Source: Acidobacteriota bacterium (lineage in GTDB: Bacteria; Acidobacteriota; Terriglobia; Bryobacterales; Bryobacteraceae). Taken from it: 47,505 bases of DNA. The position numbers and the translations under genes were made by a program. Of this stretch, positions 1 through 31,507 are shown one piece after another. Below the pieces are notes generated by a model. It did not search any database. It had not been told where the DNA came from and saw only the letters and a program-made list of their open reading frames with translations. Positions within the stretch are counted from its first letter, which is position 1. Every line of letters begins with the position of its first letter. The stretch is from contig CANIVU010000064.1 in NCBI GenBank assembly GCA_947470805.1, forward strand, positions 1 through 47,505. The letters run 5' to 3'.

Positions 1-273
1 CGGTTCGGGTCCATTCAGGATGCCCGCGCTTTTGCCACCGACTTCTTTCGCTGGTACAACGAGGATCATCACCACTCAGGCATCAGCCTGCTGACCCCGG
101 CCGTGCTTCACCATGGTCTTGCGCCGAGGGTCATCGAAAAGCGCCAAGCCGTCCTCGACGCTGCTTATCTCGTTCACCCGGAACGGTTCGTTAAGCATCC
201 GCCAAAATCCCCGCCTGCCCCAGCGCACGCCTGGATTAACAAGCCAACAACATCAAACGACGATACTCAGTAA
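1..273 (+). CDS. IS3-family transposase, C-terminal fragment (integrase core)
   Basis: This is the last 90 codons of an IS3-family transposase (OrfB, DDE integrase-core fold), open from the window edge to the TAA at 271-273. The remnant WYNEDHHHSGI, followed shortly by TPA, is the typical end of the rve core: the N-E-x-H-H-S-G-I region that follows the catalytic Glu in IS150/IS2-type transposases. A basic tail of about 60 residues then ends close to a conserved W-I-N-K-P motif, also usual in this family. The catalytic DDE residues are upstream and not visible. The gene lies within a few bases of the IS right tip, as expected. Confidence 0.82.
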   Translation, partial: RFGSIQDARAFATDFFRWYNEDHHHSGISLLTPAVLHHGLAPRVIEKRQAVLDAAYLVHPERFVKHPPKSPPAPAHAWINKPTTSNDDTQ

Positions 274-6464: not shown

Positions 6465-6872
6465 ATGGCCCCGCTCAATCGTCCGAAGGAAAATCCCTGG
6501 CAACTGAAAACGCCGCCCGGCTCGTCGGAGTACACCATGCACACCGCCGAAAAGGACGGCGTTGCCATTCTGGTCTGCACCGTTGGCTCCACCGTGCTCC
6601 ACTACGATGCTCGCTGCGTTGATGACCTCCACGCCATGCTCAAGTCCGCCGGCGATTGGGTCGAACTCGGCGGCGCCGACGAGCAGAAACCCGCCAAGGA
6701 CGGCACCGTCGAAGCCTGGGGCAGGTCTCCGGAAAACCCCATCGGTGGCTGGTACGGCATCAAAAAGGGTCTCCGCGGCCGCTTCGGCGTCTACCTGCCG
6801 CCGCTCATGGAAGCCCTTGGGCTGTGCGAATTGGAGCACAACCCGAAGAACAATCGCATGCGCGCCAAGTAG
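6465..6872 (+). CDS. Conserved hypothetical protein (probable DUF6855-type family)
   Basis: This 135-residue cytoplasmic protein shows a pattern I associate with a small conserved bacterial family; I believe DUF6855, but I could not check. Landmarks are NPWQLKTPPGSSEY near the N-terminus, LVCTVGSTVLHYDAR, GDWVELGGADEQKPAKDG and GGWYGIKKGLRGRFG, ending LELEHNPKNNRM-like (here CELEHNPKNNRMR). The many conserved Trp, Gly and Asn residues suggest a compact binding fold. Nothing indicates an enzymatic motif, a signal peptide or a membrane segment. Its stop codon abuts the stop codon of the convergent FAD oxidoreductase gene: the shared hexamer TAGCTA at 6870-6875 leaves no intergenic space. Confidence 0.75.
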   Translation: MAPLNRPKENPWQLKTPPGSSEYTMHTAEKDGVAILVCTVGSTVLHYDARCVDDLHAMLKSAGDWVELGGADEQKPAKDGTVEAWGRSPENPIGGWYGIKKGLRGRFGVYLPPLMEALGLCELEHNPKNNRMRAK

Positions 6873-8738
6873 CTACCCCGCCGGCCGCAACGCCGCGTAT
6901 ACAGCCGTTGCAAATCCCGTCAGGTCCAACTCGCCCTCCCCGCCCGTTGCCTTGTACCCGGCCCCGCGCAGCCATGCGGCCAACTCGCTCCCACGCAACA
7001 CCGCCGCCCCGTCCCCGCCCGGCGCCTTGAACGGCTTCCCTTCAAAGCCCAGGATCCGCGACAACCGCTCCGCCCCGTCCGCCCGCGTCACCGGAGCCCC
7101 GCGCAAAGTCTTATACCCCTTCCCCAGCCCCCGCGCACCCAGATACTGAAACGCCGCAAACGCCGCATCGCCGAACGGTAGATCCTCGTCAAACGTAATC
7201 ACCCCGCGCCGCTCCACCAACAGTGCCTGCACCTCCCGCACCGGCACCCTCCGCAAAGGAACGCCTTGCTGCTGCGCCACGTGCGCCGCAATCCCGCACG
7301 CCTCCCCCAGCGCCATGAACACCGGCTCCATCCGCAGCGCGTTATACGCCACATGGCTGCATGAACACGCCACCGGCACCAGCAACCCGTCGACCTTCCG
7401 AGGCACTAACACCCCATACGGCACCTGAAACGGCTCGTGCGATACGTAGAAATATCCCTCCCGTACTCCCGGATGTTTCGGGTCGTACTTATGGTGGCCA
7501 TGCGGGTCAAACTCCCACTCAATCACCGCGATCGACGTTGGCTGCACCTTCGCGCGCCCCATCGCCGCATCAATATCTCCGTCCCGCTCCGTCAACACAT
7601 ACTCGCCCAGAATCCGCCGCCCTTGCCGCACATACACCTGCCGCGGCACGTGCCCGTTGGCCACCCACTCTTCCTTGTGCCAGCCCCATTGCCGCGCGTC
7701 TTCCCGTATCTTCTCCGGCACTTCTGCATCGTTCTGCAACAGCCAGATCAGCCCTACATTATGCGTCCGCACCCTCTCGTACAGCTGCTTCCGCTTCGCC
7801 GGCGTTGCCGTCGGCCACTCCCAGATGTCCTCGGTCAGGTCCAGCGATTCGCTCGGCGCCCCCGTGTTCGGATGCACGTGGTCGCTATTCAATTCGAACC
7901 GTCCGTTCGGCATCGCATACACCTGAATAACGTCGCGGAACTTAGTCGCCCGCCCCGCCCGTATGTCTTCGAGCGTCGCCACATAGTCCGCCCGGTTGTA
8001 ATTCGCCGGCTTTTCAATCGGTACCCGATACGCCGGGACGTTCGTAACATGGAACCGGAAACAATACCCCTGCGTCGCGTTATCCGCCTCGCCCGTCGAC
8101 CCCGGCAGTAACTCCGTCCCCCGGAACTTCATGTAGATCTTTCCCGCGTGCGGCTCGTTGTACTCTGCCCGCCCTTCGCGCCCCGTCCGGAACGGTACGC
8201 CCGCCATCGCCGCCAGGTCGCCCTCGTACGTCGCATCCACAAACGCCGCTCCGCGCAGCGTCACGCCCCCCGCCTCAATTTCCACCAACCGCCCGCCGCG
8301 CACCCGCGCCCGTTTCAATTCTTTCCCCAGCAGCAGCGTAATCCTCCCGCCCTGCTCGCCAATCATCTGGTGGAAAATCTTCTCCGCCGCGTTGGCCTCG
8401 TACCAATACCCATCGCGGCACAGCTTCACATTCGGCCGCGCCGGATTGCCCTTGTCCATCTCCTCGTAGTACTTCACCACCCGCCGCGTGAACTCGTAAA
8501 AGAATCCGCCCACCGCCTGCCGCTTCCCGATATCCGCGTTCGTCAACCCATTGCTGACAATCCCGCCAATATGATCCTCCAGCGCGCACAGCACCACCGT
8601 CCGTCCCAGCCTTGCCGCCGCCACCGCCGCTGCAATCCCGCCCGGCGTTGCCCCATACACAACCACATCGGCGGTCGTCACCTTCGCCGCCCACATCGCC
8701 AGCCCGCCGCCAGCCGCCAGCACCGTTCGCCGCGTCAT
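6873..8738 (-). CDS. FAD-dependent oxidoreductase (FAD_oxidored family), exported
   Basis: This 621-residue flavoprotein has an N-terminal dinucleotide-binding motif, VVVYGATPGGIAAAVAAARLG, read in full as VYGATPGGIAAAVA, and the second FAD-contact region HIGGIVSNGL. This is the large FAD-dependent oxidoreductase family (PF12831 type) common in Acidobacteria and Planctomycetes, often linked to sugar catabolism. The reading frame extends to 8753, but the ATG at 8738 overlaps the stop of the upstream RraA-like gene as ATGA and gives a leader MTRRTVLAAGGGLAMW with a twin arginine, so I prefer it. The overlap implies translational coupling to the RraA-like gene. The substrate is unknown. Confidence 0.85.
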   Translation of the reverse strand: MTRRTVLAAGGGLAMWAAKVTTADVVVYGATPGGIAAAVAAARLGRTVVLCALEDHIGGIVSNGLTNADIGKRQAVGGFFYEFTRRVVKYYEEMDKGNPARPNVKLCRDGYWYEANAAEKIFHQMIGEQGGRITLLLGKELKRARVRGGRLVEIEAGGVTLRGAAFVDATYEGDLAAMAGVPFRTGREGRAEYNEPHAGKIYMKFRGTELLPGSTGEADNATQGYCFRFHVTNVPAYRVPIEKPANYNRADYVATLEDIRAGRATKFRDVIQVYAMPNGRFELNSDHVHPNTGAPSESLDLTEDIWEWPTATPAKRKQLYERVRTHNVGLIWLLQNDAEVPEKIREDARQWGWHKEEWVANGHVPRQVYVRQGRRILGEYVLTERDGDIDAAMGRAKVQPTSIAVIEWEFDPHGHHKYDPKHPGVREGYFYVSHEPFQVPYGVLVPRKVDGLLVPVACSCSHVAYNALRMEPVFMALGEACGIAAHVAQQQGVPLRRVPVREVQALLVERRGVITFDEDLPFGDAAFAAFQYLGARGLGKGYKTLRGAPVTRADGAERLSRILGFEGKPFKAPGGDGAAVLRGSELAAWLRGAGYKATGGEGELDLTGFATAVYAALRPAG

Positions 8739-19385: not shown

Positions 19386-20268
19386 AACTCCGGATTAGCC
19401 AATTCGAAGCCAATCGGGGCAAGACCGAGCCCGCTCGGTCCAATCGCACCCGGATTTGCGAATACGAAGCCAATCCCGGCGACAGCCACGCCAACCAGCA
19501 CCGGCCAAGACCCGGGCCAACAGATTTACCAATTCGAAGCCAATCGGGGCAAGACCGAGCCCGCTCGGTCCACTCGCACCCGGATTTGCGAATACGAAGC
19601 CAATCCCGGCGACAGCCACGCCAACCAGCACCGGCCAAGACCCGGGCCAACAGATTTACCAATTCGAAGCCAATCGGGGCAAGACCGAGCCCGCCCGGCC
19701 CACGCGCACCCGGATTTGCGAATACGAAGCCAATCCCGGCGACAGCCACGTCAACCAGCACCGGCCAGACCCAGGGCAACGGATTTACCAATCCGAAGCC
19801 AATCGGGGCAACGCCCAGCCCACCCGGCCCACGCGCACCCGGATTTGCGAGTACGAAGCCAATCCCGGCCACAGCCATGCCAACCAGCACCGGCCAGACC
19901 CGGGCCAGCGGATTTACCAATCCGAAGCCAATCGGGGCAACGCCCAGCCCACCCGGCCCACGCGCACCCGGATTTGCGAATACGAAGCCAATCCCGGCCA
20001 CTGCAGTGCCCACCAGCGCCGGCCAGGGCCAGGCCCAGGGCAACGGATTTACCAATCCGAAGCCAATCAGGGCACCGTTGAGCCCACCCGGCGCACCCGC
20101 AACCGGATTTGCGAGTACGAAGCCAATCCCGGCCACAGCCACGCCAACCAGCGCCGGCCAGACCCGGGCCAGCGGATTTACCAATCCGAAGCCAATCAGG
20201 GCAACGCCGAGCCCACCCGGCCTACCCGCAACCGGATTTGCGAGTACGAAGCCAATCCAGGCTATGTA
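19386..20268. repeat. Minisatellite with higher-order structure: seven ~129-130 bp units
   Basis: Seven tandem units fill almost the whole gap between 19377 and the response regulator gene. Marker CGGATTTGCG occurs at 19451, 19581, 19711, 19840, 19969, 20104 and 20233, giving steps of 130, 130, 129, 129, 135 and 129. A second, related marker (GATTTACCAAT or a close variant) occurs at 19392, 19523, 19653, 19782, 19911, 20046 and 20175. Both markers are followed by the same core CGAAGCCAATC, so each unit is a dimer of two diverged half-units. The array is open in all three plus frames over long stretches and also on the minus strand. No ribosome binding site or conserved start supports translation, so I treat the open frames as by-products of the repeats. 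Confidence 0.9.
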
Positions 20269-24183: not shown

Positions 24184-25461
24184 CTACGCCGGCACTGGTG
24201 CCGGCGTAGGATTCTCGGCCTTTTCCGGGACCAGTTGTTCCGTCGGGTCGATAAAGACATACAGCGCCGCGCTGATCAGCAGCATCACTGCCAACGGGAT
24301 CAGCGCCTTGTTGTAGTCGTTGCCCAACCACTTCACCAAATAGCCGAACAGCGCGGTGCTGGCAAAGCTGCCCACCTGGCCCGCCATGTTCATGGAGCCG
24401 CTTACGGAACCGGCGTACTTCTTGCCGATATCCATGCAGATGGCCCAGGAAACTGGCAGCATGCAGTCCATGCTCCCGTAGCCGAGCGCCAGGAAGAGTA
24501 CCGCGAGTTCCCGGTTTTCGGTTTGGGACGTGCCCAGCATGAACAGTCCGGAGAGCGCCAGCCCAGCCGAGCCGATCACTCGGCGGCCGATCTTCAGGCC
24601 ATATTTCTTGCTCAGATAATCGCTGGCGACGCCGCCCGACAGGTTGCCCACGATGCCGAATAGGAAGGGCAGGGTGGCCCAGAGTTTCATCTCGTTTTCC
24701 GAGAAGCCACGGCCGCGCTGCAGGTAGGTGGGCAGCCAGCCCAGATAGAAGTACGAGCCCCAGCAGTAGGTGTGATACATCGCCAGCAGGATCCAGAAAT
24801 TGCTGGAGCGCAGGACCTGTTTCCAGGGCAGGGAGACGTGGGCGGCCGCTACCTTCGGCGTTCCGATCAGCTCCAGTTCTTCTTTGCTGATGCCGGCCTT
24901 GTCGCGCGGATTGTCACGTGCGTAGAGATACCACCAGGCCGTCCACACCACGCCCACCGCGCCGAAGATGTAGAACGACGCCCGCCACCCGTATAGCTGC
25001 TGAATCGGGACCACCAGGAACGGCGCCAGAGCGCCGCCCAGCCGGGAGGCGGCCCAGGTGATGCCGACCGCGCGCGCCCGTTCATGCGTCGGGAACCAGC
25101 GGGACACCGAGGCCGAGATGTTCGGATACGCCCCCGCCTCGCCTGCGCCAAAGAAGAATCGGACGATGAGCAGGAAGTAGTAGTTCGTCGCCAGGCCGGT
25201 CAGCGCCGTGAAGGCCGACCACCACAAGACGATACGCGCCAGAATGTTGCGAGGCCCGTACTTGTCGCCCCAAACCCCGGCGGGGATCTCGAATGCGGCG
25301 TAGGAGAGAGTGAAGGCCGACAGAATCAATCCCCAGCTCTCCGTACTGATGGTTAGCTCATCCTGGATTCGCGTGCCCGCGAGGCCGATACAGACGCGGT
25401 CCAAGTAGGTGATGATCGACAGCAAAACGAGTAGCGAAAGAATCCGGTAACGATACGGCAT
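24184..25461 (-). CDS. MFS transporter (ACS family-like anion:cation symporter)
   Basis: This 425-residue inner-membrane transporter of the major facilitator superfamily has about 12 predicted hydrophobic helices. The first helix starts RYRILSLLVLLSIITYLDRV, then GLILSAFTLSYAAFEIPAG and GDKYGPRN (the loop 2-3 motif of the family), and FFFGAGEAGAYPNISASVS, which is the ACS family hallmark. Such proteins move organic anions such as hexuronates, phthalate or tartrate. Substrate choice cannot be predicted. The region beyond the last helix ends in a Pro-Ala tail (PTPAPVPA). The gene is divergent from the PQQ propeller gene at 25499, with only 37 bp between their starts, so their control regions overlap. 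Confidence 0.88.
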   Translation of the reverse strand: MPYRYRILSLLVLLSIITYLDRVCIGLAGTRIQDELTISTESWGLILSAFTLSYAAFEIPAGVWGDKYGPRNILARIVLWWSAFTALTGLATNYYFLLIVRFFFGAGEAGAYPNISASVSRWFPTHERARAVGITWAASRLGGALAPFLVVPIQQLYGWRASFYIFGAVGVVWTAWWYLYARDNPRDKAGISKEELELIGTPKVAAAHVSLPWKQVLRSSNFWILLAMYHTYCWGSYFYLGWLPTYLQRGRGFSENEMKLWATLPFLFGIVGNLSGGVASDYLSKKYGLKIGRRVIGSAGLALSGLFMLGTSQTENRELAVLFLALGYGSMDCMLPVSWAICMDIGKKYAGSVSGSMNMAGQVGSFASTALFGYLVKWLGNDYNKALIPLAVMLLISAALYVFIDPTEQLVPEKAENPTPAPVPA

Positions 25462-25498
25462 AAGCCGCCTATTCTGTCACAGGTGATAGTATTCGTGC

Positions 25499-26863
25499 AT
25501 GCGCTGGACCGCCCTTGCCGCCCTTTCTTTGACTTTGTTTGCCGATACGGACTGGCCGCGGTTCCGCGGACCGAATGGCGCCGGTGTCACCGATGGCAGC
25601 CCGCCGGTGGAATTCGGGCCAGGGAAGAACGTGGCTTGGAAGGTGGCGCCGCCGTCGGGTAAGTCCTCGCCGGTGATCGTGGGTGGGACGCTGATTCTGA
25701 CCGGCCACGCCGGGGAGGCGCTGTTGACGGTGGCCTATGACGCCGCCAGCGGCAAGGAGCTTTGGCGCCGCGAACTGAAGCGGCGAAACACCCAAAAACG
25801 CCACAAGCTAAACGATGTGGCGGCACCCACGGCGGCCGCCGATGGCCAGCGCGTGGTGGTGTTCTTTACCGAGTTCGGGCTGGCCAGTTATTCGCTCGAT
25901 GGCAAGGAAGAGTGGACGCTGCCGCTGGGAGAGATGGGGAGCATGCAGGGCGTGGCGGCGTCGCCGGTGCTGCATGGAGACTCGGTGTATCTGGTCATCG
26001 ATCAGGCACGGGATTCCTTTGTGATTGCGGTGAACGCGGCCAACGGCGAACAACGCTGGCGCCAGCCGCGGCCGGACGCGCCGGGAGGAATTTATTCGAC
26101 GCCGGTGCTGTTCACGGCCGGGCCGGAGCCGGTGCTGGGCGTGTTGGGGGACATCGAGCTGTCGGCCTATTCACTCAAAACGGGCGAGCGGGTATGGTGG
26201 GTGTCGGGGCTGCCGAGCCAGGCGAAGACGTCGCCGGCGGTGGCCGGGGACCGGATCATCTTGTCGGTAAATGCGATGGCCGAGGAGTCGCAGATTCCGG
26301 TGTTCGCCGCGCTGAACGAGGGGAAGAGCCTCGCTCTCGCCAATGCCAAAGGCGTACCGCGGGCGGTGTTTCCGACCGTGGACAAGAACCGTGACGAGGT
26401 GTTGGACGAAGCAGAATGGAATGGCTTCCGGGCGCAGGCGCTGCAGCCATCGGCCACGCTTTCGATCCGGCCGAAGGGGCGCGGGGACCTGACGAAGACG
26501 GCGGTAGAGTGGCGCGCGCAGCGGGCGGTACCCAATGTGCCGTCGCCATTGGTGGCGGGCGGATTTGTGTATACGGTACGCAATGGCGGGGTGGCCGGGA
26601 TCTATGATCTGGCGACCGGAGAAGTGAAGAAAGAGTTCCGGTTGCCGGGGGCGCTGGGGGATTACTACGCCTCGCCGGTGGCGGCGGGTAAGTACATTTA
26701 CTTCGCCAGCATGGAGGGTAAGATCACGGTGTTGGAGGCGGGCGCGGACGGGCATGTGGCGTCATCGGTGGCGATGGAGGAAGAGGTGTTCGCCACGCCG
26801 GCCATCGTTGGTGATACTTTATATCTGCGTACACAGTCAGGACTTTATTGCTTCCGTAAGTGA
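25499..26863 (+). CDS. Secreted PQQ-type beta-propeller protein with an EF-hand loop
   Basis: This 454-residue exported protein carries PQQ-like (BamB/quinoprotein-like) beta-propeller repeats. After the signal peptide (RWTALAALSLTLFA) it starts DWPRFRGPNGAG, the conserved lead strand, then blade motifs such as ASGKELWRREL, LDGKEEWTLPLG and LKTGERVWWVSG. An EF-hand calcium loop interrupts the propeller at residues 295-306 (DKNRDEVLDEAE), with Asp, Asn, Asp, Asp and Glu at the coordinating positions 1, 3, 5, 9 and 12. This combination occurs in acidobacterial and planctomycetal families of unknown function; calcium binding is inferred. No PQQ biosynthesis gene is nearby, so PQQ binding is not assured. 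Its stop at 26861-26863 is 13 bp from the TTG of the first VWFA gene. Confidence 0.84.
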   Translation: MRWTALAALSLTLFADTDWPRFRGPNGAGVTDGSPPVEFGPGKNVAWKVAPPSGKSSPVIVGGTLILTGHAGEALLTVAYDAASGKELWRRELKRRNTQKRHKLNDVAAPTAAADGQRVVVFFTEFGLASYSLDGKEEWTLPLGEMGSMQGVAASPVLHGDSVYLVIDQARDSFVIAVNAANGEQRWRQPRPDAPGGIYSTPVLFTAGPEPVLGVLGDIELSAYSLKTGERVWWVSGLPSQAKTSPAVAGDRIILSVNAMAEESQIPVFAALNEGKSLALANAKGVPRAVFPTVDKNRDEVLDEAEWNGFRAQALQPSATLSIRPKGRGDLTKTAVEWRAQRAVPNVPSPLVAGGFVYTVRNGGVAGIYDLATGEVKKEFRLPGALGDYYASPVAAGKYIYFASMEGKITVLEAGADGHVASSVAMEEEVFATPAIVGDTLYLRTQSGLYCFRK

Positions 26864-26876
26864 AGGAGTTACTCCG

Positions 26877-28136
26877 TTGCGGTATACCCTCTTTTTCCTT
26901 GTAAGTACGGTGCTGCTTTCGCAGACCTTTCCGATGGAAGTTCATCGAGGGAAGCAGGACGGGACGATGCAGATTTCCATCCCGGTGGCGACCTTGCCGA
27001 TGGTGCGGGCGAGTGGCGAATGGCGCAGCACGCTGGAGGTGACTTACATCATCCAGGGCGAGGGCGGGGCGGAGTTGGACCGGGCGGGCGAGGCGGTGGA
27101 GATCAAGATGGACGACCGCCGGCGGCGGTTCATGCTGTCGCAGGCGCTGACGTTGACGAGGCCATTGGGGGCCGATCCGCGGGCGACGGCGTTGCGCGTG
27201 GAGGTGCGGCATAAGGGATCGAGCGCGTTTGGCGCGGCGAAATTGGAGTTGAGCGGGGCGCCGTTTTATGTGGGGGGCGGCGTGGCGCTGGTGCCGTTCC
27301 AGGTGGCGCGGCCGGAGGCGAAGATGGTGACCGGGCTGACGGCCGCCGATGTGCGGCTGTTGGAGGACGGGGTGGAGCAGGCGGCGACGGTGTACGCGGC
27401 CGGTGTGTTGCCGGCGGAGTCGGCGCCGGTGGAGATCGCGTTGCTGTATGACTGCAGCGGGAGCGTCCGCGCGGGCGGGAGTTTGGACCCGCTGGTGGTG
27501 CGGAAGGGGATGCTGGATTCGTTCCCGGAGGCGCGGATTGCGGTGTATGGATTTAGCGAGGGGCTTACCCAACTGGTGGGTTTCACCCGGAGTGAGGCGG
27601 AGTTGCGGCGGGCATCGGGCGCGCTGCAGGGGGTACAGGCGAGAGGCACTTATCTGTTCTCTAACATCGCGGAGGTGGTGCGGCGGTTCGACCGGACGCA
27701 CGCGGCGATCCGGATTGTGGTGGTGTTCTCTGATGGGGAGACTAACCGGACGTGGGATAGCGAGACCGCAACGGACGTGATGCGACTGGCGCGTGAGGCG
27801 GGGGTTGCGATCTACCCTGTGTACACCGGACCGCCGATGGACATGACCCAACCGCGGCCGGGGCGGCCTCCGTCGGCGCCGCGGATGAGTGCGGGCTTTT
27901 CCGCGGCCGATTTCCAGCGATTGACCGAGACCGGTGGCCGGAGTTTCACGAAGGCGAATGGCGCGGATCTGCTGCCGCTGCTGTTGGGGGAAATTGCGAA
28001 GACGGTGAAGGAATCCTATGTGGCCGGGTATCAGCCGGCGGCGGGGGAGAAGGCGAGGGCGCGGCGGGTGCAGGTGGCGCTGCGGGATCCTGAGCGGGGC
28101 GTGGTGATTGGCGGTTCTCGGACGGTGGTGAAGTAG
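26877..28136 (+). CDS. Secreted VWFA-related acidobacterial protein, copy 1
   Basis: This is a 419-residue member of the VWFA-related family (TIGR03436), known from Acidobacteria where it is widely duplicated. It starts at a TTG because AAGGAG lies 8 nt upstream and the signal peptide (RYTLFFLVSTVLLSQTFP) begins there; the frame upstream to 26754 is unlikely. An N-terminal beta-rich part begins MEVHRGKQDGTMQISIPV, followed by the VWFA domain with MIDAS residues DCSGS, Thr in RGTYLFSN and Asp in VVFSDGETN. The C-terminus ends VVIGGSRTVVK, a tail shared with its paralogues. The function is unknown; a metal-dependent adhesion role in the cell envelope is inferred from the domain. The stop is followed by one base and then a mini-ORF that re-uses its tail sequence. 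Confidence 0.86.
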   Translation: MRYTLFFLVSTVLLSQTFPMEVHRGKQDGTMQISIPVATLPMVRASGEWRSTLEVTYIIQGEGGAELDRAGEAVEIKMDDRRRRFMLSQALTLTRPLGADPRATALRVEVRHKGSSAFGAAKLELSGAPFYVGGGVALVPFQVARPEAKMVTGLTAADVRLLEDGVEQAATVYAAGVLPAESAPVEIALLYDCSGSVRAGGSLDPLVVRKGMLDSFPEARIAVYGFSEGLTQLVGFTRSEAELRRASGALQGVQARGTYLFSNIAEVVRRFDRTHAAIRIVVVFSDGETNRTWDSETATDVMRLAREAGVAIYPVYTGPPMDMTQPRPGRPPSAPRMSAGFSAADFQRLTETGGRSFTKANGADLLPLLLGEIAKTVKESYVAGYQPAAGEKARARRVQVALRDPERGVVIGGSRTVVK

Positions 28137-28137
28137 G

Positions 28138-28272
28138 ATGCGGGCCGGGGTGCTGCGGTTGGGGCAGGAGGGCGCCGATTGGGTGGGCCGGATTGCCGAG
28201 ACGGTGAAGGAGTCGGATGTGGCGGAGGGGGAGGGCGTGGTGATTGGCGGTTCTCGGACGGTGGTGAAGTAG
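28138..28272 (+). CDS. 44-codon mini-ORF: collapsed VWFA gene, copy A
   Basis: This complete open frame (ATG to TAG) begins one base after the stop of VWFA copy 1. Its start MRAGVLRL and following QEGADWVG match the start (MRAG) and N-terminal QEGADWVG of VWFA copy 2. Its second half, RIAETVKESDVAEGEG-type text then VVIGGSRTVVK, matches the C-terminal region of copy 1 (IAKTVKES and VVIGGSRTVVK). It thus looks like a full VWFA gene that lost its centre, keeping frame. The VWFA domain is gone, and the signal peptide's hydrophobic part is also missing, so export is unlikely. Translation would depend on coupling to the upstream stop. It may be only a deletion relic. Confidence 0.5.
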   Translation: MRAGVLRLGQEGADWVGRIAETVKESDVAEGEGVVIGGSRTVVK

Positions 28273-28273
28273 G

Positions 28274-28408
28274 ATGCGGGCCGGGGTGCTGCGGTTGAGG
28301 CAGGAGGGCGCCGATTGGGTGGGCCGGATTGCCGAGACGGTGAAGGAGTCGGATGTGGCGGAGGGGGAGGGCGTGGTGATTGGCGGTTCTCGGATGGTGG
28401 TGAAGTAG
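28274..28408 (+). CDS. 44-codon mini-ORF: collapsed VWFA gene, copy B
   Basis: This is the second copy of the same mini-ORF, again separated by a single base from its neighbours on both sides: TAG-G-ATG before and after. It differs from copy A by Gly to Arg in LRLRQEG and Thr to Met in the final RMVVK. The stop and start spacing is the same as between full-length genes in this cluster, so the whole segment from 26877 to 30991 could be read as one coupled series. Two substitutions, both changing the protein, argue against strong selection on the peptide, although the frame is kept. Confidence 0.45.
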   Translation: MRAGVLRLRQEGADWVGRIAETVKESDVAEGEGVVIGGSRMVVK

Positions 28409-28409
28409 G

Positions 28410-29741
28410 ATGCGGGCCGGGTTGCTGCTGTTGGTTCCGGTGCTGTTGGCGCAGACGCTGCCGCTGGACGTCCGACGCGGGGAGCGGGAGGGGACGGTCG
28501 TCTTTGCGGTGCCGGGGGCTTCGTTGCCGCTGGTGCAGGAGGGCGCCGATTGGGTGGGCCAGTTGGAGATGGTTTACCGGGTGATGGGGGCCGATGGGCA
28601 GGTAATGGATCAGGCGGCGGAGACGGTGCCGCTGCGGGTAACGGCGGCGCAGAAGGCCGCGATGGCATCGCAGGCGGTCCGTATCGCGCGGCCGTTGCCG
28701 GCGGTGGCGGGCGCGGTGGAGTTGCGGGTGGCCATGACGGTCCGGCCTGCCGGGACACAGTTCGCGGGCACGATGGCGTTGGGCGGAGCGACGTTCCAGG
28801 TGGACACGAATGTGGCGTTGGTGCCGTTTCAGGTGGAGAAATCGACGGGTTCGTTTTTGACCGATTTGCGGGCGGAGGAGATCCGCCTTCTGGAAGATGG
28901 CGTGGCGCGGGAGGTGGCGTTGCAGATGGTGGGCCGGCAGGGGCCGGCGGCGGTTCCGGTGGACATCACACTATTGCACGACCGCAGCGGGAGCATGGGG
29001 GACACCAGCGCCTACAACGCCGAGGTGTTCCGGAAGGGTTTGCTGGACGAGTTTCCGAATGTGCGGATCGCCATCTACGGGTTCAGCGATGACTTGGTGC
29101 GGTTCACGCCGCACACGCGGGATGTGGAGGCGCTGAACCGGGCGTCGGCGCTGGTGGCGTCGATTGCGCCGCGATCGACACCACTGTTTTCGAGTATCTC
29201 GCGGACGATTGGCGGGTTCGATTTGGGGCGGGCGGCGGTGCGGATTCTGATCGTACTTTCGGATGGGAAGGCGTCCCGTGCGGATTCTGATTCGTTTGCG
29301 TCCGTGCTGCAAACCGCGCGCCGGGCTGGGGTGGCGATTTATCCGGTATTGGTGGCAACGCCGATGCCGGCGAAAGTGTCCCCTCCCCCACCCCCGCCGC
29401 CGCGGCCGCCGGTGCCGCGCAACAAGAAAGGCGAACCAGCAACGCCGGTGAACCAGACGGCCGACGTGGAGATGCGCCGTATGCAACAGGCACAGGGTAC
29501 GGCGGCGCTGAGCGAATCGGTGGCCGATTATGGGCGGCTTGCGCGCAGCGGCGGAATGTTGTTGACTCTCGTACCGTCGGGCAATAGCTTGCCCGGGTTG
29601 TTCGCTGAGATTGCGAAAACATTGCGGTATTCGTATGTGGCCAGCTACCGGCCATCGAAAGGAACGCGAGAGGTGAAGGTGGAAATGGTGTACAAGAAGC
29701 GCGGGAAGGTAATTGGCGGGGTGCGGACGGTGGTGCGATGA
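28410..29741 (+). CDS. Secreted VWFA-related acidobacterial protein, copy 2
   Basis: This 443-residue paralogue has a short signal peptide (MRAGLLLLVPVLLAQT). Its N-terminal domain begins LPLDVRRGEREGTVVFAVPG. The VWFA domain carries a complete MIDAS: DRSGSMGDTS, Thr in RSTPLFSS and Asp in LIVLSDGKAS. Unlike its neighbours it has a Pro-rich insertion near residues 325-345 (SPPPPPPPRPPVP), probably an exposed linker. The C-terminal tail is KVIGGVRTVVR. The gene follows the second mini-ORF by one base, and its own stop overlaps the ATG of copy 3 as ATGA. No clear ribosome binding site precedes it, so translation is likely coupled. Confidence 0.86.
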   Translation: MRAGLLLLVPVLLAQTLPLDVRRGEREGTVVFAVPGASLPLVQEGADWVGQLEMVYRVMGADGQVMDQAAETVPLRVTAAQKAAMASQAVRIARPLPAVAGAVELRVAMTVRPAGTQFAGTMALGGATFQVDTNVALVPFQVEKSTGSFLTDLRAEEIRLLEDGVAREVALQMVGRQGPAAVPVDITLLHDRSGSMGDTSAYNAEVFRKGLLDEFPNVRIAIYGFSDDLVRFTPHTRDVEALNRASALVASIAPRSTPLFSSISRTIGGFDLGRAAVRILIVLSDGKASRADSDSFASVLQTARRAGVAIYPVLVATPMPAKVSPPPPPPPRPPVPRNKKGEPATPVNQTADVEMRRMQQAQGTAALSESVADYGRLARSGGMLLTLVPSGNSLPGLFAEIAKTLRYSYVASYRPSKGTREVKVEMVYKKRGKVIGGVRTVVR

Positions 29742-30991
29742 TCCGGGCGGCGATCCTGCTGTTGTTGCCGGTGGCGTTGGCGCAGACGGTGCCGATGGAG
29801 GTGCGCTACGGAGCGCAGACGGGGACGGTGCAGTTTTCGATTCCTGGCACTTCGGTGCCGCTGGTGGCGGAGGGCACCGATTGGGTGTGTACGCTCGAGA
29901 TTGTCTACCGCGTGACGGACCGGGAGGGCAAGACGCTGGACCAGGCGACGGAGACGATTCCGGTTCGTTTGAACGCGGCGCAGAAGCAGGCGGCGGTGGC
30001 GCAACCGTTGGCGCTGACGCGACCGTTGCCCCGGCATCCGGCGGCGGCGGAGTTCCGGGTGGAGATGACGGGGAGGCCGGCTGGGGTGACGTTCGCGGGT
30101 TCGTTGCCTTTGGGGGCGGCCTCCTTTTCGACGGAGGTGAGCGTGGCGCTGCTCCCGTTCCAGGTAGAGCAGGCCGGGGGGAAGCTGGCGACCGATTTGA
30201 AGGACGACGATGTTGCGGTTATGGACGGCGGGGAGGAGCGGAAGGCGAAGGTGTCTGCGATTGGCGGGCGACAGGCGGACGCGATGCCGTTGGACATTAC
30301 GCTGCTGTTTGACCGGAGCGGGAGCATGCGCTCCGGCGCGGGGGCGGATCCGGAGATCTTCCGGAAGGGGATTCTGGATGAGTTTCCGACGGCGCGGGTG
30401 GCGGTTTATGGCTTCAGCGACAAGCTGATGCAGTTTACGGCGCACACGCGGGACGAGGCGGCGTTGCAGAGGGCGGTGTCGCAGTTGAACAAAGTTCCGC
30501 CGGCGGGTACGCCCTTGTATTGGGCGGTGGCGGAGGCGATTGGGCGGTTCGACCGGAAGCGGCCGGCTCTGCGGATTCTGGCGGTGTTTTCCGATGGGTT
30601 GGACAGCGGCAGCGACGTGACGTTTGCACAGGCGATGCGGGAGGCGCAGGCGGCTGGGGTTTCGATTTACCCGGTTGTGGTGGCTAGTGCGGCGCCGCCT
30701 CCGTCCTCCGCTTCGCGGCGAGCGAAGAAGGGAAGCGCGGTGACGCCGACGATGGATTTGGCTGGAGCCGCGATGCAGTTCCGCCAACTGGCGGATTCGG
30801 GCGGGCAGGACATGTCGGCCGTGCCGGGCGCCGACAATGTGGCGGTTCTTTTCCGAGAGATGACGAAGAAGTTGCGGGGTGCGTATGTCGCCGCGTATCA
30901 GCCGGCGGAAGGGGAGCGGACGGTGCGTGTGGTGCTGCGGGATCCATCGCGCGGGAAGGTGATTGGCGGGACGCGGACGGTGGTGCGGTAG
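29738..30991 (+). CDS. Secreted VWFA-related acidobacterial protein, copy 3
   Basis: This 417-residue third paralogue has a signal peptide (MIRAAILLLLPVALAQT). The N-terminal domain begins VPMEVRYGAQTGTVQFSIPG and the VWFA MIDAS is complete: DRSGSMRSGAG, Thr in AGTPLYWA and Asp in LAVFSDGLDSG. The C-terminal tail is KVIGGTRTVVR. Pairwise resemblance to copies 1 and 2 is clear along the whole length, which supports tandem duplication followed by divergence. Its stop codon abuts the stop of a convergent minus-strand gene: TAGCTA at 30989-30994 serves both, with no spacer for a terminator. The role is unknown beyond the family. Confidence 0.86.
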   Translation: MIRAAILLLLPVALAQTVPMEVRYGAQTGTVQFSIPGTSVPLVAEGTDWVCTLEIVYRVTDREGKTLDQATETIPVRLNAAQKQAAVAQPLALTRPLPRHPAAAEFRVEMTGRPAGVTFAGSLPLGAASFSTEVSVALLPFQVEQAGGKLATDLKDDDVAVMDGGEERKAKVSAIGGRQADAMPLDITLLFDRSGSMRSGAGADPEIFRKGILDEFPTARVAVYGFSDKLMQFTAHTRDEAALQRAVSQLNKVPPAGTPLYWAVAEAIGRFDRKRPALRILAVFSDGLDSGSDVTFAQAMREAQAAGVSIYPVVVASAAPPPSSASRRAKKGSAVTPTMDLAGAAMQFRQLADSGGQDMSAVPGADNVAVLFREMTKKLRGAYVAAYQPAEGERTVRVVLRDPSRGKVIGGTRTVVR

Positions 30992-31507
30992 CTATTTGCG
31001 CAGCGCGGCCTGGGCGGCGGTGGTGGCGGCGTTGACGAGGTCGACCGGCTTCATCTGCTTCTTCACGACGAAGGAGAAGAGTTCGTTTTTGCGGGCGACG
31101 ACAAGCTGGCTTAGAGATTCGTTCCAAAAGGCTTTTTCACCGACGCTGGGGATCCAGGTGAGCTTTTGAGGTTTCACGGTGAGTTGCTGGCCGTCGCGAT
31201 CGACGGTGTACCCCTTGGTGAGTTTTTCAAACCGGGCGTCGAGTTCCTTGATGGCGTTCGGAATGGGCTCGATGCGGATACTGAAAGACTCATTAGCGCG
31301 AGCAGGCACATGGCGGCCGCTGCGGAGGGCTTCGCGGAGTTGGGGGCCGGTGGGCGGGATGCCCATCCAGATATAGCCGCAACTATCGGCGCGGACGGTG
31401 CGAATGGGGGTGGATTCGGGGATTTCGAAGACCTGCCGCAGATCCTGTTCCGGGAGATAGGAACAGGGATCTGTGGCGGCCAGGAAGAAGAACAACAGCG
31501 GTGTCAC
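30992..31507 (-). CDS. Small hypothetical secreted protein (171 aa)
   Basis: I do not recognise a named family. I start it at a GTG (31507), 2 nt after the stop of the alpha/beta hydrolase gene; the frame further upstream is Arg-rich shadow sequence. The leader TPLLFFFLAATDPC is hydrophobic, and the first Cys may start a mature lipoprotein, although the lipobox is not canonical. The body includes CSYLPEQDLRQVFEIPES, a second Cys in RADSCGYIWMG and a C-terminal FWNESLSQLVVARKNELFSF, reminiscent of small secreted proteins that hold a Cys pair. A disulfide between the two cysteines is inferred. It is cotranscribed with the upstream hydrolase. Convergent stop codons leave no space at its end. Confidence 0.62.
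   Translation of the reverse strand: MTPLLFFFLAATDPCSYLPEQDLRQVFEIPESTPIRTVRADSCGYIWMGIPPTGPQLREALRSGRHVPARANESFSIRIEPIPNAIKELDARFEKLTKGYTVDRDGQQLTVKPQKLTWIPSVGEKAFWNESLSQLVVARKNELFSFVVKKQMKPVDLVNAATTAAQAALRK

Follow-up and report, generated by a model that had tools for sequence, protein, structure and literature searches.

Two nearly identical 136-bp units lie between the first and second of three tandem VWFA genes in an acidobacterial contig, of which the whole 47,505-nucleotide stretch that was analysed is called the window below. Each unit consists of 44 sense codons and TAG, and each is a mosaic of the two flanking genes. The gene remnant is real and well resolved; it is most likely debris, and a passive relay of ribosomes through it is possible. 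We consider it probable that the units are the debris of an unequal exchange between copies 1 and 2, the product of which, a middle chimera, collapsed and was then duplicated once. The locus is a clean snapshot of tandem gene family turnover in an acidobacterium, with a mosaic whose parents can be identified and a doubled remnant; a sister species carries a chimera of the reciprocal type, and in other genomes the site is empty. If its in-phase decay was selected, polarity and coupling would shape gene death inside operons.

Anatomy of the locus and family membership

The window carries, on the plus strand and in this order, a PQQ_2/BamB-like gene, VWFA copy 1, unit 1, unit 2, and VWFA copies 2 and 3 (Table 1). 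The most likely start of copy 1 is TTG 26877, with both the start and a signal-like N terminus judged by eye. Nowhere in the window do copies 1 and 2 adjoin directly, while copies 2 and 3 share 4 bases (ATGA, 29738-29741), so that the window offers no junction of two full genes with the stop-base-start spacing that the preliminary description saw preserved in the units. As the preliminary description had it, the two frames are set off from each other and from both VWFA genes by a single base: a lone G separates stop from start at 28137, 28273 and 28409. The tandem mini-ORFs that it placed at 28101..28419 are also real, but the periodicity extends from 28097 to 28433. Units 1 and 2 differ at 2 of 136 positions (28162/28298, G/A; 28259/28395, C/T), and both differences are nonsynonymous (G9R and T41M). 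The Shine-Dalgarno-like GGTGGTGA in the tail of copy 1 recurs before unit 2 and before copy 2.

Table 1. Features of the VWFA array and segments of the unit 1 mosaic. Segment positions are counted within unit 1.
Feature	Position	Strand	Remarks
PQQ_2/BamB-like beta-propeller gene	25499..26863	+	upstream of the array; serves as syntenic marker
VWFA copy 1	26877..28136	+	419 aa; TTG start assigned by eye
Shine-Dalgarno-like GGTGGTGA	28122..28137	+	in copy 1 tail, before unit 1 start; motif position by eye
136-bp tandem repeat	28097..28433	+	2.5 periods; takes in copy 1 end and copy 2 start
Unit 1	28138..28272	+	ORF of 44 codons; mosaic with copy 2 parts (start, QEGADWVG) and copy 1 parts (ETVKES, VVIGGSRTVVK)
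Unit 2	28274..28408	+	unit 1 ORF with G9R and T41M
VWFA copy 2	28410..29741	+	443 aa
VWFA copy 3	29738..30991	+	417 aa; ATGA overlap with copy 2
Segment from copy 2 start	unit 1-22		2 mismatches (2/22); mosaic alignment
Segment from copy 2 28531-28562	unit 23-54		QEGADWVG block; 2 mismatches (2/32); mosaic alignment
Segment from copy 1 27993-28022	unit 55-84		ETVKES block; 5 mismatches (5/30); mosaic alignment
Segment from copy 1 28097-28137	unit 96-136		tail; 0 mismatches (0/41); mosaic alignment

All three full genes score over the cut-off of 23.8 bits for the Pfam VWA family, PF00092 (27.3, 28.9 and 25.5 bits for copies 1, 2 and 3, respectively). The family TIGR03436 (acidobact_VWFA) needs at least 81.25 bits; copy 3 lies over this value (84.0), and copies 1 (68.6) and 2 (68.0) lie below it. 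VWFA genes are plentiful in the genus, with 25 matches (E up to 1e-8) in G000, the genome of the window, and at least one match in each of the 19 genomes. Heavy gene duplication has been described in Solibacter, and the available portion of that study names a von Willebrand type A paralogue, called too divergent for the tree analysis there (PMC3174227). The unit segments come from full-length genes of the acidobact_VWFA kind (TIGR03436), of which copy 3 passes the cut-off. Unlike such full-length members, the units lack a VWA domain and match no family: neither unit matched any NCBIfam family at E up to 10, TIGR03436 included, or any Pfam family.

Mosaic structure and probable origin of the units

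Unit 1 was aligned to the paralogues with jumps allowed, and the score was compared with those of 60 first-order Markov resamples. The mosaic scored 74; the resamples averaged 1.3 and never exceeded 16 (n = 60), so the kinship between unit and paralogues is not due to chance. All four confident segments hold the parental phase, and they are colinear. Exact matches include 12 bases at the copy 2 start, 26 in the copy 2 QEGADWVG block, and 40 at the copy 1 end, in agreement with the earlier proposal that the start and QEGADWVG block of copy 2 are joined to the VKES and VVIGGSRTVVK end of copy 1. The tail of unit 2 differs from copy 1 at 1 of 41 positions. The program gave the 11 bases of unit positions 85-95 a weak, out-of-phase placement; by eye, they could be a leftover of the copy 1 stretch VAGYQPAAGE. 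With a laxer jump penalty, the mosaic was broken into more and shorter pieces.

Four confident segments imply at least three junctions and not one central deletion. The preliminary description held that a gene had lost its centre in frame and then duplicated; the mosaic origin, the collapse, the duplication and the retained frame are supported, and the single central loss is not. Since the junctions are common to both units and only 2 bases differ between them, the collapse came before the duplication.

Unequal exchange between tandem copies yields a gained product with the start of the downstream copy and the end of the upstream one, and a lost product with the reverse arrangement. The units take their 5' part from the downstream paralogue and their 3' part from the upstream paralogue, in colinear order, and so show the polarity of a gained product. 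We propose that a former VWFA gene lay between copies 1 and 2 and that the units are its remnant. This middle gene, with a copy 2-like start and a copy 1-like end, would have arisen by unequal exchange of the tandem copies 1 and 2. Its interior would then have been lost in at least three deletions, by a presumed order and mechanism, to leave the four in-phase segments. The resulting 136-bp remnant would have doubled once, probably via the tail-plus-start sequence, of which about 53-65 bases are repeated. The stop-G-start junctions and the Shine-Dalgarno-like tail may pass ribosomes from copy 1 through the units to copy 2, which would leave the debris harmless to downstream genes. As a protein, the unit most likely has no function.

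Divergence from the parents is uneven (0/41 in the tail against 5/30 in the ETVKES block), which implies either a parent that had diverged beforehand or a later homogenisation of the tail. As judged from these alignments, one recent chimera made from the present copies 1 and 2, with neither a diverged parent nor tail homogenisation, does not fit. The phase kept at all three junctions (1 in 27 by chance) also appears to speak mildly against wholly unselected decay. Remnants of unequal crossing-over in tandem families are likewise made from tandem paralogues, with a middle chimera that begins like the downstream gene and ends like the upstream one, and with lineage-specific copy number. The units differ from them in having collapsed to 136 bp, in having their confident junctions in phase, and in having been duplicated as a mini-cistron.

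Turnover of the array among relatives

We compared the locus across 19 genomes of the genus, G000 included. The PQQ gene has a match in 19 of 19, at 67% identity or more in 9 (own genome included). Copy 3, and thus the array, is present in 3 of 19 (G000, G004 and G010; E up to 1e-25). In G004, the closest relative, copy 1 runs to the end of a contig (94.6% over 3000 bases), and another contig, C381, carries a different, diverged VWFA gene and then copy 3. The contigs break in this region, and the assembly gap between C549 and C381 spans the place where units would lie. The diverged gene (C381:32-688, locus L044) precedes copy 3 and so takes the place that copy 2 has in the window; it corresponds to neither of copies 1 and 2, with about 67% DNA identity to copy 2 (229 bases).

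G010 has the end of the PQQ gene, then one VWFA gene, and then copy 3, without units. The first 60 bases of that first gene are copy 1-like (65%, versus 53% for copy 2), and the remaining 60-base blocks are closer to copy 2 in 21 of 21 cases. This gene shows the lost-product polarity, reciprocal to that of the units. Against an origin by exchange, its chimerism spans the start region only, where the flank is positional, and the gene could be ancestral rather than an exchange product. Downstream of copy 3 in the same genome (C528, locus L042, 2228-2442) a short stretch again resembles the 3' part of copy 3 (MRVRHLTDSGGQDMSAMPGMSNMTML-like) and appears to be a further partial duplication.

In six other genomes, the PQQ orthologue reaches at least 67% identity. 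The array site is nearly empty, with about 60-160 bases, in five of them (G002, G006, G013, G014 and G018). In the sixth, G003, the site on C16 (L047, about 6830-8077) holds a 1.25-kb stretch that does not match the window; three of its reading frames, inspected by eye, showed no VWFA frame. From these comparisons, we judge that the array is labile within the genus. No full-length middle chimera, as parent or intermediate, was seen in the relatives; the G010 gene has the opposite polarity, and G004 has a gap there.

A comparison of the copy number of the 136-bp unit in related strains had been proposed earlier as a check. The array is labile among the relatives, and the searches recovered no further instance of the unit. 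Among up to 12 candidates scored in each of 60 relatives, the unit DNA gave one 33-base match, in G041 (88%, E 2.3e-4; 2000 of 3033 locus bases read), which we took as chance. The 44-aa product gave one weak partial match and no second instance in the 199 other genomes of the order: the search over 200 genomes, own included, recovered the own two copies and a 40% match within a 308-aa frame in G177. We also considered a mobile repeat and rejected it; searches of plasmids and phages gave no unit match, and among up to 12 candidates scored in G000, none was found beyond the copy 2 parent stretch. The accessible literature yielded no description of collapsed in-frame units of this kind, and a search under VWFA family names yielded nothing.

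Coding capacity, coupling and alternative readings

Over 27 codons (the tail, identical in unit 1, was left out), unit 1 differs from its parents by 6 nonsynonymous and 3 synonymous changes; with the two inter-unit changes, the totals are 8 and 3. The probability of at least 8 nonsynonymous changes among 11 is 0.65 under neutrality and 0.012-0.029 at an omega of 0.2-0.25; the full VWFA genes have omega values of 0.09-0.25. The parental differences alone (6 nonsynonymous of 9) give 0.052 at an omega of 0.2, which is not clearly excluded. On these counts, the unit changes look unconstrained and neutral-like. Of 5000 first-order resamples of the inner 129 bases, 42% keep the frame open, and openness by itself is therefore weak evidence. 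By arithmetic, three junctions would all be in phase by chance 1 time in 27, which may be read as a mild hint of frame selection. Neutral debris, one of three options raised in the preliminary description, fits best, given the unconstrained changes, the share of open resamples, and the lack of a second instance among the genomes searched.

The units have the anatomy of coupled cistrons, with a +1 stop-start spacing and a Shine-Dalgarno-like site. Pairing of the 20 bases in front of a start with the anti-Shine-Dalgarno sequence, for which the letters of E. coli were used, amounts to -12.0 kcal/mol at unit 1, unit 2, copy 2 and copy 3 alike, and to -8.3 kcal/mol at copy 1. A value of -12.0 kcal/mol is reached at 3.7% of 1365 in-gene positions. 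In E. coli, according to the available portion of one study, the last 15 nucleotides of the upstream gene are enough for termination-reinitiation, and a stop-start distance of about 20 nucleotides nearly abolishes it (PMC10666635). Because of this anatomy and of the published work on other gene pairs, passage of ribosomes from copy 1 through units 1 and 2 to copy 2 by coupling is plausible. In the parts available of two reports on termination-reinitiation pairs (PMC10666635, PMC6728339), those pairs resemble the units, which have a very short, +1 stop-start distance and a Shine-Dalgarno-like upstream 3' end; however, they are mostly -4 or -1 overlaps of functional genes.

A stronger reading, which we regard as unlikely, is that the units were selected as relay cistrons, with in-frame decay and stop-G-start junctions feeding ribosomes to copies 2 and 3 and averting polarity. 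The strong pairing at all four starts, seen at few in-gene positions, the phase of every confident junction, and the tail as the best-preserved unit segment are in keeping with such selection, as is the dependence of termination-reinitiation in E. coli on a short upstream tail and distance (PMC10666635, in the part available). However, copy 2 ends in the pairing tail too, and this tail encodes the conserved C terminus of the family, so that relay selection is not needed to explain it; excising both units would give equal coupling; 1 in 27 is weak; and the pairing depends on anti-Shine-Dalgarno letters borrowed from E. coli. The more general proposal, that paralogues decay under selection for frame and stop-G-start only, to minimal relay cistrons that hand on ribosomes, with the units as such relays, we hold to be quite doubtful.

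An assembly artefact of short reads, in the tandem copy number or in the units altogether, is very unlikely. In its favour, the assembly consists of 220 contigs, the units share an exact repeat of up to 96 bases, and the G004 contigs break in the array region; yet two sites distinguish the units, and the mosaic interior runs into both flanks with the frame unbroken.

It is highly improbable that the units encode a selected 44-aa peptide with the conserved VWFA tail, another of the earlier options. Each unit has an open frame and start signals, but the product matched neither Pfam nor NCBIfam; it has lost the hydrophobic stretch of copy 2, and with it any signal peptide, as well as the whole VWA domain. 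There is no sign of purifying selection on the peptide across species: 8 of 11 changes are nonsynonymous, neutral-like, and the 200 genomes of the order hold the own two copies and a single 40% partial match, with no second instance. A model of the unit from one sequence was of middling confidence (mean pLDDT, 69.3; pTM, 0.38). A model of copy 2 from 6 sequences gave a mean pLDDT of 69.8 and a pTM of 0.53, and its VWA part falls outside the pieces retained in the units.

We give as little credence to the remaining option, that the 136-bp unit serves to switch between the neighbouring paralogues by recombination. The array is labile among relatives, and the unit has exact stretches in common with copy 2 (26 bases) and copy 1 (40 bases), which would suit such a device; beyond the lability, however, it found no support: those stretches are short, no phase-variable configurations, recombinase or inverted arrangement was found in the locus and the relatives compared, and the units occur in one genome only (60 relatives, up to 12 candidates scored in each).

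An RNA element was considered and rejected. The units fold no better than shuffles (z = +1.17 and +0.96; +1.34 for the repeat in another register), and Rfam gave 0 matches over the window at gathering thresholds. A promoter or terminator within the array was likewise rejected: positions 25300-31300 hold 1 promoter-like and 5 terminator-like sites, which is no excess over shuffles (0.7 and 5.6), and none lies within the units.

Elsewhere in the window, positions 19391-20262 hold another tandem repeat, with a period of 129/264, 3.3 to 6.7 copies, and about 90% matches. It is open on both strands, with repeats such as 'GFTNPKPIGATPSPPGPRAPGFANTKPIPATA' on the plus strand or 'AGIGFVFANPGARGPGGLGVAPIGFGLVNPL' on the minus strand.
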